The notes beneath the pieces were generated by a model. It saw only the letters and a program-made list of their open reading frames with translations, was not told the DNA's origin and did no database searches. A DNA stretch of 64,000 bases from Neptuniibacter pectenicola (GTDB lineage Bacteria; Pseudomonadota; Gammaproteobacteria; Pseudomonadales; Balneatricaceae): assembly GCF_001597735.1 (NCBI RefSeq), contig NZ_LUTS01000005.1:186001-250000 (forward strand), given 5' to 3'. The translations under genes were made by a program, and so were the position numbers. The stretch's first letter is position 1, and the number at the start of each line of letters is the position of its first letter. Positions 38,812 through 44,263 of this stretch are shown piece by piece.

Positions 38812-39510
38812 GTGAAGCATACATCTCCACATGATACGGCAACCTTACTTGTCTTTTGTAAACAGCCAAAATTAGGTCAGGGGAAACAGCGTTTAGCCGC
38901 AACCCTTGGTAAGGATGTAGCGTTTGAGATTGCATCGGCCCTGTTGGCCTGTGCTTTGGAAGATGCAGCAAAGTGGCCCGGTCCCGTTGTACTATCGCCT
39001 GCAGATTCAACAGAAGAAGAGTGGGCGCGTAATTTATTATGTCATGCGGAGGTGGTAGCCCAACCACAAGGGAATCTAGGGCATAGAATCATGTCGGTCG
39101 ACCAGCAGTTACGTGATAAGGGTCACCAGACGATTATGATTATTGGTACTGATGCGCCGATGCTCAACGAGGCTGTTTTTTCTCAAGCGCTAGATGGGTT
39201 AACACACAGTGATGTTACCTTGAGTGCGGCGGAAGATGGCGGTGTCACCCTGATGGGGAGCCGTATACATTGGCCAAATATAGTGGATATTCCTTGGAGT
39301 ACTGACCGTTTAGGCGAATCGCTTCACTATAAATGTGTTCAGGCCGGTCGCTCTATCGCTTACACCCAGCCAAGTTATGATATTGATCATGAGAAAGATC
39401 TGCATAAGCTCATCGTAGACTTAGAACATGATCTACGGCCTGCACGACAGGCGTTGTTTACGCTTGTTAAATCTGTTGTATATAACAGCACAATTAAAGT
39501 AACCAGTTAA
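38812..39510 (+). CDS. TIGR04282/DUF2064-type transferase, first gene of radical SAM operon
   Basis: 232 residues, nucleotidyltransferase-like GT-A fold. It starts at GTG with LLVFCKQPKLGQGKQRLA, the family nucleotide-binding opening. It then has QGNLGHRI (from the DLG.R motif), IIGTDAPML and the AAEDGGVTLMG segment (DGG), and IPWST. Such proteins were first defined as partners of radical SAM/selenodomain proteins and are now often called arsenosugar-type glycosyltransferases. Twenty bases separate it from the radical SAM gene. I infer that it activates or transfers a sugar phosphate in the same pathway. Confidence 0.85.
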   Translation: MKHTSPHDTATLLVFCKQPKLGQGKQRLAATLGKDVAFEIASALLACALEDAAKWPGPVVLSPADSTEEEWARNLLCHAEVVAQPQGNLGHRIMSVDQQLRDKGHQTIMIIGTDAPMLNEAVFSQALDGLTHSDVTLSAAEDGGVTLMGSRIHWPNIVDIPWSTDRLGESLHYKCVQAGRSIAYTQPSYDIDHEKDLHKLIVDLEHDLRPARQALFTLVKSVVYNSTIKVTS

Positions 39511-39530
39511 CCACAGCTAGGCGATTAAAC

Positions 39531-40442
39531 ATGCAACGTATTCACACGGATAACTGGTTTGTTACCCCCGACGGCAAACCACGCGGTTATATTGAGCCCC
39601 ATGCGCTTAAGGAGCTTTGGTTCCATACGGGCACCGCTTGTAACCTACAATGTTCTTTCTGTTTAGAAGGTTCAGGCCCCGGGGATACCCGATTAGAGTT
39701 AGTAAAATTTGCTGATGTAAAACCGCTGATTGATGAGTCTCTAACCTTAGATGTAGAGCAGTTTTCGTTTACGGGGGGGGAGCCTTTTCTTGCGAAACAG
39801 TTGGTGCAAATTTTAGCCTATGCGGCCACGTTTAAACCCTGTTTAGTGCTGACGAATGGTACAGATGCGCTCCAGCAACGAATGGATGAAGTACGCACCT
39901 TGTTAGCGTCTAAACACCCTGTCAGCTTTCGTATCAGTATTGATTATCCCACCGCTCAGCAACATGATGCCGGGCGGGGTGAAGGAACATTTTCAAAAGC
40001 CTTACAAGGTCTTAAAGCATTATATGATTTAGGCTTTTCTGTATCCGTTGCGCGTCATATGGATAAAGATGAGGAAAGGGCAGAGATGGAAGCCGCTTAC
40101 CGTGAGCTTTTTGTGGCGCATGGTTTGCCGGGGGATCTACACATCGTGGCGTTTCCTGATTTCGCCACGCCGGGCAGCTTGCCCCATGTGCCTCAAGTGA
40201 CAACACATTGCATGACGACATATCAGACTGAAAAAAGCCGCAAGGACTTTATGTGTGCTTTTAGTAAGATGGTGGTGAAGAAGCAGGGTCAGATGAAAGT
40301 GTATGCCTGTACTCTAGTGGATGATGATGAAGAGTATGATCAAGGTTCCAGTTTAACGGAAAGCCTTAGTGAGCGAATTAGTATGAAACACCATCGTTGC
40401 TATAGTTGTTTTGCTTATGGCTCATCCTGTAGTGAGGCGTAG
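39531..40442 (+). CDS. radical SAM enzyme with C-terminal cysteine-rich (SPASM/twitch-like) tail
   Basis: 303 residues. The radical SAM cluster is bound by Cys37, Cys41 and Cys44 (CNLQCSFC), with SAM-binding GGEP at 82-85. Six more cysteines follow: 227, 242, 260, 290, 293 and 300, the last three as CYSCFAYGSSC. This hints at an auxiliary iron-sulfur cluster of twitch/SPASM type. It opens ELWFHTGTACN and is not the usual ArsS pattern. It sits between a DUF2064 transferase and a nucleoside phosphorylase, so it likely makes a 5'-deoxyadenosyl-derived intermediate or a modified sugar. A G8 run encodes the GGE part of the motif (39773-39780). Confidence 0.88.
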   Translation: MQRIHTDNWFVTPDGKPRGYIEPHALKELWFHTGTACNLQCSFCLEGSGPGDTRLELVKFADVKPLIDESLTLDVEQFSFTGGEPFLAKQLVQILAYAATFKPCLVLTNGTDALQQRMDEVRTLLASKHPVSFRISIDYPTAQQHDAGRGEGTFSKALQGLKALYDLGFSVSVARHMDKDEERAEMEAAYRELFVAHGLPGDLHIVAFPDFATPGSLPHVPQVTTHCMTTYQTEKSRKDFMCAFSKMVVKKQGQMKVYACTLVDDDEEYDQGSSLTESLSERISMKHHRCYSCFAYGSSCSEA

Positions 40443-40487
40443 CGGTGTGTCAGGTTAACAATGATCTATTTGAATAAGGGGACATAA

Positions 40488-41336
40488 GTGTTAGGTATTA
40501 TTGGTGGTACAGGTATCTATCAGTTGGACGGGTTAGAAGTGACCGGAGAACATGATGTAGAGACCCCTTTTGGTAAACCCTCCACTCCAATTGTCGAAGG
40601 TAAAATAGGTGTCAGAACACTTTTCTTTTTACCTCGACATGGGCGTCAGCATGAGTTACTTCCGTCTGAAGTAAATTACCGCGCTAATATTTGGGCCTTA
40701 AAGTCACTGGGTGTTACCCAAGTTATCGGGTTGTCTGCGGTTGGCAGCTTGAAAAAAGAGATTGCGCCGGGAGATCTATCATTGCCCGATCAGTACTTCG
40801 ATTTTGTAAAAGGTCACCGTGAGAAAACTTTTTTTGGCAAGGGGTTAGCCGCCCATGTATCAACTGCCGAACCGACCTGCCAGCGTTTGTCTATGGGTCT
40901 CGCTGCTGCGGGAGAGCGGGTAGGTATTAGGCTGCATACGGGTAAAACCTATGGCTGTGTGGATGGGCCTCGTTTAGGCACAAGAGCTGAAAGCTTCTTT
41001 TTACGCGGTGCGGCGGGTTGTGATCTTGTCGGCATGACGAATGTGCCCGAGGTGTTTTTAGCCCGTGAAGCGCAACTGTGTTACTGCACTATTGCGATTG
41101 CGACTGATTATGATTGTTGGTTGGATGATCCCGATCAGCATGTGTCTGTTGAGCAAGTGATTGCTCGTTATGGCGCCAGTTTAGAGAAAGCAAAGACTGT
41201 CGTGAGTGCTTTCATTGACGATTATGCTGAGGACGGGGACTGCGCTTGTCGATGCAGTTTAGCGTCGGCGGTGTTAACGCCGAAAGAGGCGCTAAATAAA
41301 GAGCAGTCTGCTTTGCTTGAGCTCTTAAGTTCCTAG
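40488..41336 (+). CDS. methylthioadenosine/adenosine-type nucleoside phosphorylase
   Basis: 282 residues, hexameric PNP fold of the MTAP family. Motifs: GIIGGTGIYQL at the start, LPRHGRQHELLPSEVNYRAN (phosphate binding), GLSAVGSLKKEI, MTNVPEVFLAREA and TDYDCW, the last placing the two aspartates that select 6-aminopurines. It should release adenine from methylthioadenosine or another 5'-modified adenosine by phosphorolysis. The start is GTG with AGGGG upstream. Only two bases separate it from the next gene. In this operon its substrate may be the radical SAM product, not bulk methylthioadenosine; this is inferred. Confidence 0.88.
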   Translation: MLGIIGGTGIYQLDGLEVTGEHDVETPFGKPSTPIVEGKIGVRTLFFLPRHGRQHELLPSEVNYRANIWALKSLGVTQVIGLSAVGSLKKEIAPGDLSLPDQYFDFVKGHREKTFFGKGLAAHVSTAEPTCQRLSMGLAAAGERVGIRLHTGKTYGCVDGPRLGTRAESFFLRGAAGCDLVGMTNVPEVFLAREAQLCYCTIAIATDYDCWLDDPDQHVSVEQVIARYGASLEKAKTVVSAFIDDYAEDGDCACRCSLASAVLTPKEALNKEQSALLELLSS

Positions 41337-41338
41337 TT

Positions 41339-42070
41339 ATGGAACCGTCACTATCGCTTTCTGTTGTTATTCCCATTGGGCCGGAAGAATCGGCTGTGCC
41401 TTCAGGATTGATCGATGACCTTCGGTCCATTCCCCCCTCCAGTGAAATTCTGTTTATTACCTGTAACCAGCGCTTTGGTGCGGAACAGAAACAGGCTGTG
41501 GTGACTGCGTTAAAGCCTTTGCAGGTCCGTTGGTTGGCATCAGGGCAAGGGCGCGCCGTACAGATGAATCATGGAGCTCAGGCTGCGGTTGGACAGTTTA
41601 TTTGGTTTTTGCATGTGGATAGCCGTTTCTCTGCGGCGCTCGTTGAACAGCTCTTCACCCATCTATCTAACGAACCGGGCAAGCTACATTATTGTTTATT
41701 GCAGTTTTTAGCTGATGGTGCTCAGGGGATGGCGATCAATGGCTGGGGCGCTAATCTTCGTTCTAGGGTATTGGGGATTCCGTTTGGAGACCAAGGGTTT
41801 GCGGTTACTCGCGCTGTTTTTGATCAGGTAGGGGGTTACCCAGAAAACGTTGCTTACGGTGAAGACCATCTGTTTGTGTGGTATGCGCGACAGCAAGGTA
41901 TAAAGTTAAAATGCTGTGATCAATACCTGCAAACCAGTGCGCGAAAATACAGAGATAAAGGGTGGTGGTATCTTACCTGCCGTTATCAATACTTATGGAT
42001 AAGGCAGGCAATTCCTGAGTTACTTAAGCTGCTTAAAACGCGCTACTTGTCAGCGCGCTGCCAGCGATGA
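41339..42070 (+). CDS. TIGR04283-like glycosyltransferase with altered nucleotide-binding loop
   Basis: 243 residues, GT2 fold. It retains the family core: GRAVQMNHGAQAA, FLHVDSRF, FGDQGFAVTRAVFDQVGGYPE and EDHLFVWYARQ, then a late tSARKYRDKG-type ending. The usual N-terminal DGGSxD donor-binding segment is replaced by ILFITCNQRFG, so the donor or metal use may differ. It ends the four-gene operon, and its stop lies inside the convergent fusion gene (28-base overlap). Role: the last sugar or alcohol transfer in the pathway, inferred from family and place. Confidence 0.82.
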   Translation: MEPSLSLSVVIPIGPEESAVPSGLIDDLRSIPPSSEILFITCNQRFGAEQKQAVVTALKPLQVRWLASGQGRAVQMNHGAQAAVGQFIWFLHVDSRFSAALVEQLFTHLSNEPGKLHYCLLQFLADGAQGMAINGWGANLRSRVLGIPFGDQGFAVTRAVFDQVGGYPENVAYGEDHLFVWYARQQGIKLKCCDQYLQTSARKYRDKGWWYLTCRYQYLWIRQAIPELLKLLKTRYLSARCQR

Positions 42071-44178
42071 AATTTTTCTAACCACTGTAATACCTTCTCG
42101 GGTGAATGGGCCCGTTTCCACTCGCCAGCCACATATTTATTAGCCTCGCTGAGCGTTGGGTAAATATGGATAGTGCCGAGTACTTTATTAAGCCCTAGGC
42201 CGTTTTTCATGGCCGTTACAAATTCGGTTATTAGCTCACCTGAGTGAGGACCAACAATCGTCGCGCCTAATATTTTGTCCTTGCCGGGTACGGTTAGAAT
42301 TTTAACCATGCCGTGGGCATCATTATCTGCAATCGCTCGATCGAGTTCGGCTAAATCAAAGCGGGTGACTTCATAGGCGATGTTTTGTGCTTTCGCTTCC
42401 TGCTCATTTAAGCCAACCCGTGCGACCTCGGGGTCGGTAAACGTTGCTGCAGGAATAATGGAGTAATCGACCTTGAACTTTTTAAATCGCCCAAAGAGAG
42501 CATTTACGGCTGCGTACCACGCTTGATGTGCTGCCGCGTGGGTAAACTGGAAGGGGCCTGCCACATCGCCACATGCATAAATATTAGGGTAACGCGTTTG
42601 TAAGTACTCATTTACATCGATGGTGCCGTTTTCTCTTATATCTACATTTATATTTTCTAGGCCGAAACCTTCAATGTTTGCCTGTCGTCCGATCGCCACA
42701 AGCAGTTGATCAAAAGCAATCTCTTCGACTTGTCCATTGTGTTCGCTGATGAGGATCTTCTCTCCATCGCGTTCAATAAACTCACGCATTTTTCTGTTAT
42801 CTAAGATACGTACACCTTCGGCTTGAAACCGTTCAGTGACTAAGCTGGATACATCTTCATCTTCTCTCGACATGATACGATCATCGGGGAGTAAGATGCT
42901 GACCTCAGAACCGAAGCGAGCAAAGCACTGACTGAGTTCGCAGCCAATCGGACCGCCCCCAATCACTAATAATCGTTTAGGCAGCTCACGAATGTTCCAA
43001 AGGTTGTCAGACGTTAGAGGGTTCATCGCTTCTATATTTTTAACGGCGGGCATACGAGGGCGTGCACCCGTTGCAATAACAATATTACGGGTCGTAATAA
43101 TTTCACCATTAACGACCACTTCGTACGGATTTAAAATGGTGGCCGCACCTTGAATGCAATCAACACCGAGTCCGGTGTAACGCTCAATTGAATCGTGGGG
43201 TTCTACCGTTTTGATAACGTCTTGCACGCGATTCATCACATCAGCAAAGTTGAAGCTGACTTCGCTCTTTTCTATACCGTATTCCTTGCAGCGTTTATTA
43301 TCTGATACAAACCGCGCTGAACGAATGAGTGCTTTTGACGGTACACAACCCGTATTCAAACAGTCGCCTCCCATCAGGTTTTTCTCGACTAAGCTGACTT
43401 TTGCTTTTACCGCCGCTGCAATATACGACGTTACTAAGCCTGCTGAGCCCGCGCCAATGACAACAATATTAGTGTCGAATTTAGCGGGCTTTTTGATGCC
43501 CGCGTAGACTTTTCTGCTTTGTAATAACTCGATTATTTTCTTTGCAACCAGCGGGAAAACGCCAAGAAGGGTGAAGGATGCCAGCATGCTAGGCGATAAG
43601 ACACCGGATAGACTTTCGAGCTGACCTAGCTGAGTGCCGGCATTCACAAAGACAATAGTTCCCGCCAACATACCTAATTGGCTCACCCAATAAAATGTCC
43701 AGGTCTTGATCGGGGTTACACCCATCGCTAAGTTGATGACAAAAAATGGAAAGATGGGCACTAGACGCAGGGTAAATAGATAAAATGCCCCCTCTTTTTC
43801 GATGCCTTTATTAATGGCCGATAGTTGACTAGAAAAGCGGCTTTGGATGCTGTCGCGTAAGATTAAACGGGAGAATAGAAAGGCCAGTGTTGCGCCAATT
43901 GAGCTGGCAAAGGAGACAAGGAGCAGCCCTGTCGTGAGGCCAAATAAAGCACCTGCCGCCAGTGTCATTATCGCAGCACCAGGAAGAGATAGGCCTGTAA
44001 CGAGTATATAAAGCCCGAAGAAGATAGCCGCCGTGACTAGAGGGCTTTCCGTATATTGCTGATCAAATTTGGCTTGATTGGCTTTGAGAAAATCTAGATT
44101 TAGATAGTGGCCTAAGTCAAAAAAGAAAAAGGCAGCAACCGCTAACGCAATCGTTAATATAAGAGGCAGTTTTTTCAT
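42043..44178 (-). CDS. TVP38/DedA membrane domain fused to pyridine-nucleotide disulfide reductase
   Basis: 711 residues from the ATG at 44178. The first 215 form a VTT/TVP38-type membrane domain (helices near 8-25, 48-65, 67-90, 95-110, 140-180, 195-215; motif LRLVPIFPFFVINLAMG). Residues 235-711 are an FAD/NAD disulfide reductase: GAGSAG near 242, redox pair Cys273/Cys278 in GDCLNTGCVPSK, a second GGGPIG and a dimer-interface HIYPTLSEANKY. It resembles mercuric-reductase/lipoamide-dehydrogenase-like enzymes. It converges on the operon 38812-42070, and may share its pathway, for example in redox of an arsenical or other soft element. Confidence 0.9.
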   Translation of the reverse strand: MKKLPLILTIALAVAAFFFFDLGHYLNLDFLKANQAKFDQQYTESPLVTAAIFFGLYILVTGLSLPGAAIMTLAAGALFGLTTGLLLVSFASSIGATLAFLFSRLILRDSIQSRFSSQLSAINKGIEKEGAFYLFTLRLVPIFPFFVINLAMGVTPIKTWTFYWVSQLGMLAGTIVFVNAGTQLGQLESLSGVLSPSMLASFTLLGVFPLVAKKIIELLQSRKVYAGIKKPAKFDTNIVVIGAGSAGLVTSYIAAAVKAKVSLVEKNLMGGDCLNTGCVPSKALIRSARFVSDNKRCKEYGIEKSEVSFNFADVMNRVQDVIKTVEPHDSIERYTGLGVDCIQGAATILNPYEVVVNGEIITTRNIVIATGARPRMPAVKNIEAMNPLTSDNLWNIRELPKRLLVIGGGPIGCELSQCFARFGSEVSILLPDDRIMSREDEDVSSLVTERFQAEGVRILDNRKMREFIERDGEKILISEHNGQVEEIAFDQLLVAIGRQANIEGFGLENINVDIRENGTIDVNEYLQTRYPNIYACGDVAGPFQFTHAAAHQAWYAAVNALFGRFKKFKVDYSIIPAATFTDPEVARVGLNEQEAKAQNIAYEVTRFDLAELDRAIADNDAHGMVKILTVPGKDKILGATIVGPHSGELITEFVTAMKNGLGLNKVLGTIHIYPTLSEANKYVAGEWKRAHSPEKVLQWLEKFHRWQRADK

Positions 44179-44263
44179 CAATAGTATTCTCAAAGAAAGT
44201 TATTGATCAATTAGTCACTTATATTGGGCGGTAAGTTCAATAATTAGACTAAATTTAACGTCA

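Follow-up and report, generated by a model that had tools for sequence, protein, structure and literature searches.

A second radical SAM lineage may stand in for ArsS in an arsenosugar-type operon of Neptuniibacter pectenicola

Which pathway is served by an operon that joins a radical S-adenosylmethionine (SAM) protein to a nucleoside phosphorylase and two predicted transferases, when the radical SAM protein is unlike ArsS, the enzyme otherwise found in such company? The question is raised by four genes, here termed A, R, P and G, in a 64,000-nucleotide stretch of Neptuniibacter pectenicola DNA (RefSeq assembly GCF_001597735.1, contig NZ_LUTS01000005.1, positions 186,001 to 250,000 of the forward strand; hereafter the window), on which a fifth gene, M, converges. 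A preliminary description of this DNA had recognised the logic of the ArsS route, in which a radical SAM step is followed by a phosphorylase and transferases, and had suggested that the product may be a different 5'-modified ribose compound, or the substrate a different arsenic-type one. The ArsS-like logic is supported by the data presented here; that the product must be something else than an arsenosugar is, so far, not, while a different arsenic-type substrate may apply in this organism. Because genes for the methyltransferase ArsM and the reductase ArsC adjoin R in relatives, with R and ArsS standing in for one another among genomes, we favour an arsenosugar pathway in which a different enzyme carries out the adenosylation. 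We consider it probable that the operon belongs to an arsenosugar-type pathway with R in place of ArsS. Its reactions, the arsenical it uses and the functions of A, G and M are inferred, whereas the gene identities, the recurring neighbourhood, the partners common to ArsS clusters, the exclusion between R and ArsS and the links to ArsM and ArsC in relatives are observed. On this reading R would be a second radical SAM lineage adenosylating an arsenical, which suggests that nature holds at least two interchangeable enzymes for the step.

Distribution and gene partners of R and ArsS

Two sets of genomes, both including the source genome of the window, were searched: an order-level sample of 293 and a second, class-wide draw of 219. 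R occurs in 38 genomes of the order sample (34 close and 4 distant homologues) and ArsS (TIGR04167) in 103, all above the family cut-off. Not one genome holds both, where 13.4 would be expected (Fisher 2e-8, a value that ignores relatedness). At the genus level ArsS overlaps in one of 15 genera with R against 6.1 expected (P = 0.003). With R in 5 genomes of the class-wide draw and ArsS in 112 (109 above cut-off), the overlap there is zero against 2.6 expected (P = 0.027). Six families, the window's own included, hold both R and ArsS, never in one genome.

Gene neighbourhoods were compared in the 80 closest of 574 matches to R (the named loci), a partner being counted within 6 kb of R under a 60-bit limit. 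By this measure 69 of the 80 loci have a partner (68 if only strong M matches are counted), and 50 have one other than M alone. M-like matches occur in 42 loci (30 at 700 bits or above; 12 weaker, some of them perhaps other oxidoreductases), A in 37, G in 33, ArsM in 28, P in 10 and ArsC in 3. Partner hits number 158 in the 787 kb within 6 kb of R and 2 in the 206 kb farther out in the same loci; the association of partners with R is far above chance. In 20 of the 80 loci ArsM is the gene immediately upstream of R, in the same orientation. The source genera include Marinobacter, Amphritea, Marinobacterium, Neptuniibacter, Colwellia, Nitrosomonas and Methylotenera. The preliminary description had let its proposal depend on a conserved association of the four genes: the neighbourhood does recur across genera and phyla, while the complete set of A, R, P and G stands together only in some R loci.

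A family of about 350 amino acids is encoded directly beside R in ten loci (order-sample neighbourhoods, up to 20 kb). It scores 182 bits against the arsenite methyltransferase model NF008823 (cut-off 263) and 97 against the arsenosugar ArsM model (cut-off 400); because a member matches solved arsenite methyltransferases (best E 6e-108), the family is firmly predicted to be ArsM, presumably of the AS3MT type. Three genomes of one genus (L042, L044, L046) show the gene order A-ArsM-R-ArsC-P-G, with an ArsC that, scanned in one of them, reaches 137 bits against the arsenate reductase TIGR02691 (cut-off 174.3), and three further loci (L127, L130, L148) read ArsM-R-ArsC-P.

The same kinds of partner accompany ArsS. 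At the 60-bit limit, 20 ArsS loci yield G in 14, M in 10, A in 9 (an undercount, several A matches scoring just below the limit), ArsM in 4 and P in 3. Other neighbours were named by eye, guided for DUF547 and metallophosphoesterase by a Roseomonas annotation: DUF547 proteins (5 R and 6 ArsS loci), desaturase-like proteins (2 and 3), sigma factors (17 and 3), sodium:solute symporters (18 and 2) and metallophosphoesterases (17 and 1). Across whole genomes of the order sample, TIGR04283 is present in 37 of the 38 with R; among ArsS-negative genomes this compares with 28 of 152 without R, and the corresponding figures for any ArsM are 16 of 38 and 11 of 152.

Lineage of R and of the linked transferases

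R matches the Radical_SAM domain (PF04055) at 54.0 bits, above cut-off, with the CX3CX2C motif at C37-x3-C41-x2-C44. The six further C-terminal cysteines pointed out in the preliminary description (227, 242, 260, 290, 293 and 300) are present, and an alignment of 17 homologues, among them three with only 31-32% identity to R, shows no variation at any of the nine cysteines. The nearest named relative, among the 80 best of 574 matches, is that of Neptuniibacter sp. 1_MG-2023 (90% identity). None of the 25 NCBIfam families shown for R reaches its cut-off. The best, NF049973 (Rv1681 radical SAM family), scores 109.5 bits against a cut-off of 380, below which membership was ruled out; the Rv1681 family may nevertheless be the nearest named relative of R. 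Among the open-licence PubMed Central (PMC) papers listed in literature searches none dealt with the R family, though others may exist, and none paired Rv1681 with radical SAM.

One alternative would make R a diverged ArsS ortholog that belongs in the ArsS family. It was first suggested by an end-to-end hhalign alignment of the two (Prob 98.2, 267 columns including the C-terminal cysteines) and by the similarity of those cysteines, although shared terminal cysteines may be a general trait of twitch/SPASM-like ends. In profile comparisons with clean controls, R matches ArsS at 97.9 (score 96.0) and MoaA at 98.4 (score 108.5), and the alternative was dropped with MoaA matching R equally well. 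Ahead of both stand the distant R-like group (100) and next, as the best match after it, an Rv1681-like plasmid protein (99.6, score 168; 208 columns, ending before the terminal cysteines). The ArsS model TIGR04167 covers positions 3-151 of 303 with 59.7 bits against a cut-off of 300, which bears out the earlier statement that R does not look like ArsS. In a 46-row radical SAM tree (the window's R, 22 of the 80 named R, 5 distant R-like proteins, 12 of 20 ArsS, 5 of 8 MoaA and one Rv1681-like protein), R forms one clade (92/96, not starred) and ArsS another (100/100). We therefore hold ArsS orthology to be very unlikely; judged by sequence, the resemblance is of superfamily level. The R clade spans Pseudomonadota, Planctomycetota, Lentisphaerota, Thermodesulfobacteriota and others. 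With few outgroups in the tree, R and ArsS may still be remote sisters, and the single Rv1681-like row sits on a very long branch with unsure placement.

Predicted structures bear on a second alternative, in which R acts on a non-arsenic substrate (a peptide or selenium, for example) and P only clears the by-product 5'-deoxyadenosine. MTAP-type enzymes can indeed phosphorolyse 5'-deoxyadenosine, and the closest solved structures of the R model (mean predicted local distance difference test score, pLDDT, 86.7) include maturases of ribosomally synthesized and post-translationally modified peptides as well as BlsE. The three best matches in the PDB are SkfB, BlsE and SuiB, but the ArsS model (pLDDT 80.6) has the same three in the lead, so that these matches are no argument against an arsenic role; because both models find them first, structure does not separate R from ArsS, and the matches are uninformative about substrate. 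The linkage of R to ArsM and ArsC, the partners common to ArsS clusters and the mutual exclusion with ArsS all speak against a non-arsenic substrate, which we regard as quite unlikely.

The arsenosugar reading, with R in place of ArsS, draws further interest from the transferases. Rapid phylogenies of A (70 rows) and G (68 rows) place R-linked and ArsS-linked sequences largely apart; they were built without bootstrap from open reading frames (ORFs) within set bounds of length and score, so that some fused or short ones are absent. All 38 R-linked rows of the A tree, the window's A in their clade, fall on one side together with the ArsS-linked L210 (Shimodaira-Hasegawa-like approximate likelihood ratio test, SH-aLRT, 100). 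The G tree gathers 16 R-linked rows, the window's included, on one branch, while the remaining 18 fall together with L210 (support 94). The genome of L210 (G271) truly encodes ArsS, at 447.8 bits, and because its rows group with the R-linked A and G, this ArsS cluster carries R-type transferases. An R genome (G250), in turn, carries an ArsS-type G-A pair located away from R (L239). These two loci are the strongest hints that R and ArsS feed the same later steps.

ArsM, the arsenical substrate and the proposed pathway

The preliminary description had noted the lack of an ArsM in the window, and within the reach of our searches the same is true of the genome as a whole: those with an AS3MT-type protein and NF008823 found no ArsM at E 1e-30 in the source genome or in its congener G258. 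A hidden ArsM was sought among the 26 Methyltransf_25 hits of the source genome by scanning the eight best, none of which is an ArsM as far as the scan shows; they are UbiE, BioC, UbiG, a protein of cyclopropane fatty acid synthase type and a DVU_1556-like one, the last two both short of their cut-offs, and three proteins that match nothing at 1e-20. The AS3MT-type search recovers ArsM in 14 of the 38 R genomes, and either search in 16, so that 22 are without one; 44 of the 103 ArsS genomes lack ArsM as well. Being common in both kinds of genome, the absence does not separate R from ArsS. It may mean scavenging of methylated arsenic, or another substrate.

The second of these options forms an alternative that keeps the chemistry and changes the arsenical: R would adenosylate arsenite or monomethylarsenite, giving a non-dimethyl arsenosugar and explaining the missing ArsM. 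Besides the genomes just counted, the separateness of the R lineage from ArsS and the presence of arsC beside R in some loci agree with it. Many relatives within the clade, however, have ArsM immediately next to R, ArsM-less genomes are frequent with ArsS too, and dimethylarsinate can be taken up from seawater; we judge this alternative unlikely. A bolder form of it, that radical adenosylation of arsenic was recruited twice, R having entered the ArsS type of gene set in several phyla without close kinship to ArsS, and that in ArsM-less genomes R uses an arsenical which ArsS does not (inorganic arsenite or monomethylarsenite), leading to undescribed arsenosugars, is equally doubtful.

As a separate observation, three ArsM-like matches hold one in-frame TGA each (G006:C15:495332-496033, G049:C2:502818-503519 and G133:C161:2989-3654). 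NCBIfam holds ArsM selenoprotein families, and these codons could stand for selenocysteine or reflect sequence errors.

A radical SAM enzyme is described as adenosylating arsenic in oxo-arsenosugar biosynthesis (PMC12159101), and SsArsS as acting together with SsArsM (PMC8552651). In the pathway we propose, R would split SAM and put the 5'-deoxyadenosyl group on a trivalent arsenical, most likely dimethylarsenite. P would then phosphorolyse the arseno-adenosine to adenine and 5-deoxy-5-arseno-ribose-1-phosphate, and A and G would convert this arseno-sugar phosphate to the final glycoside, while M may be a source of reductant or may itself act as a reductase of pentavalent arsenicals. The later steps of arsenosugar formation are known as loss of adenine followed by transfer of the arseno-ribose. 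The source organism would draw on a methylated arsenical from outside, as it must if the substrate is methylated because no ArsM was found in its genome, or on another arsenical. The pathway type is a known one; the lineage of R is, by its NCBIfam scores, the part that reaches no cut-off among the matches shown.

Several points weigh against this interpretation, beyond the neglect of relatedness in the Fisher value and of bootstrap in the transferase trees. In profile comparison R resembles ArsS no more closely than it does MoaA, P is linked to R in only 10 of the 80 loci, and no ArsM was found in the source genome, its congener, the scanned methyltransferases or more than half of the R genomes. 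Eleven of the 80 named loci lack any partner in the 6-kb range (six are stretches shorter than 9 kb, five are not), and more distant relatives of R lie outside these counts. The A tree carries a long-branch join warning that involves the ArsS-linked row L191. TIGR04283, finally, also occurs outside the pathway: of the 167 genomes positive for it, 28 lack both R and ArsS, and at the G loci examined in 13 of these 28 (L222-L234; ORFs longer than 180 amino acids with CX3CX2C in the scanned form, or an R or ArsS match; L230 and L233 shorter than 9 kb) no radical SAM gene was found beside G. A third radical SAM enzyme in this position was considered, and none was seen at the 13 loci.

Arsenosugars are major organic arsenic forms in sea and seafood. 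Surveys based on ArsS alone would miss the R genomes; in the order sample, 141 genomes have one enzyme or the other, and 38 of these have R. A second radical SAM lineage for the carbon-arsenic bond, if true, would offer a natural comparison for understanding how such chemistry is arranged, and with the mixed cluster L210 one can ask if the downstream enzymes tolerate either product.

The operon, its wider surroundings and known systems

The tight packing of the four genes given in the preliminary description is confirmed by ORFs and family scans: the ORFs are co-directional and span 38812-42070 on the + strand, with intergenic gaps of 20, 45 and 2 bases (Table 1).

Table 1. Genes of the A-R-P-G operon and the convergent gene M (positions in the window)
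Gene	Position	Strand	Length	Start	Assignment
A	38812..39510	+	232 aa	GTG	TIGR04282/DUF2064-type (CofC-like) nucleotidyl/glycosyl transferase
R	39531..40442	+	303 aa	ATG	radical SAM protein; proposed arsenical 5'-deoxyadenosyl transferase
P	40488..41336	+	282 aa	GTG	MTAP-type adenine nucleoside phosphorylase
G	41339..42070	+	243 aa	ATG	TIGR04283-like family 2 glycosyltransferase
M	42043..44193	-	716 aa		VTT (TVP38/DedA-type) membrane domain fused to pyridine-nucleotide-disulfide oxidoreductase

A passes the cut-off of Pfam DUF2064 (67.8 bits, cut-off 25.8) and matches TIGR04282 over its whole length (127.7 bits, model positions 1-189 of 189) without reaching the curated cut-off of 134. G, likewise, is above the cut-off of Glycos_transf_2 (25.9 bits, cut-off 23.3) and below that of TIGR04283 (161.4 bits, positions 1-210 of 221; cut-off 182). 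P passes the cut-off of the MTAP model TIGR01694 (280 bits, positions 1-239 of 240; cut-off 274.85), matches solved phosphorylases of 5'-methylthioadenosine (MTA) across most of its length (best E 4.8e-67), and contains the TDYDCW segment already reported for it, which we take to be adenine-selecting. Because the same genome encodes a separate MTA/S-adenosylhomocysteine (SAH) nucleosidase, MTA recycling probably does not depend on P; this and the place of P in the R operon make a 5'-substituted adenosine other than MTA its likely substrate. M is a probable partner in the pathway, where it would serve in reductant supply or arsenical reduction.

In Marinobacter loci among L155-L183, with genes named by eye, M precedes R, and a symporter and a metallophosphoesterase come after it. 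Many of these loci have an upstream divergent sigma factor with a short Cys-containing protein resembling an anti-sigma factor, and ectoine-biosynthesis-like genes next after the metallophosphoesterase. The A match of L128 (3117-4481) and L133 (6602-7969) lies in an ORF of about 455 amino acids, some twice the usual length and with R directly after, which may represent A joined to a further domain. On the plasmid of Marinobacter adhaerens HP15 (NC_017507.1, about 90103-90988; L212) a match to R, joined from two pieces with 97% query coverage, has no annotated gene, perhaps because annotation missed it or because it is disrupted.

Four genomes of one family (L222, L224, L225, L226) carry a tight arsenosugar-type G-A-M trio, neither R nor ArsS being found in the genome. 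At two loci of R-positive genomes (L235, L238), ORFs with CX3CX2C are, by eye, reminiscent of a repeat protein rich in cysteine and of a protein of methylthiotransferase type.

Plasmid p546-1 of Roseomonas haemaphysalidis (L211, 5016-16112) holds a distant R-like gene beside a second radical SAM gene, a TIGR04282 gene and DUF547, together with PhnD-like, PhnE and ATPase transporter genes and a metallophosphoesterase; VTT and FAD-oxidoreductase genes (FAD, flavin adenine dinucleotide) are nearby on the other strand. The transporter genes form a possible arsenical uptake module. A PhnD-like gene also adjoins an Rv1681-like gene in Mycolicibacterium (L213).

Among known systems, the closest in content is the ArsM/ArsS arsenosugar pathway of Synechocystis sp. 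PCC 6803 (TIGR04167, TIGR04282, TIGR04283), whose partners are of the same kinds as those of R loci: transferases of TIGR04282 and TIGR04283 type, ArsM, the VTT/FAD oxidoreductase, the phosphorylase and DUF547 are common to both. Like ArsS, R has the CX3CX2C motif and a slot beside TIGR04282, TIGR04283, ArsM and the oxidoreductase. The R system differs in that R falls outside TIGR04167, that A and G of the window stay below their family cut-offs in R-linked clades largely apart, and that no ArsM was found in the source genome. The Rv1681 family is the best NCBIfam match of R, yet R stays below its cut-off, and MTAP claims P by score, but P sits in an R operon of a genome with an MTA/SAH nucleosidase. 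In arsinothricin biosynthesis (ArsL, ArsM, ArsQ), a radical SAM enzyme beside ArsM likewise forms a carbon-arsenic bond (PMC8552651). Compared with ArsL, R has six more cysteines, and because its cluster holds a nucleoside phosphorylase and sugar-type transferases, an adenosyl rather than an aminocarboxypropyl product would fit R.

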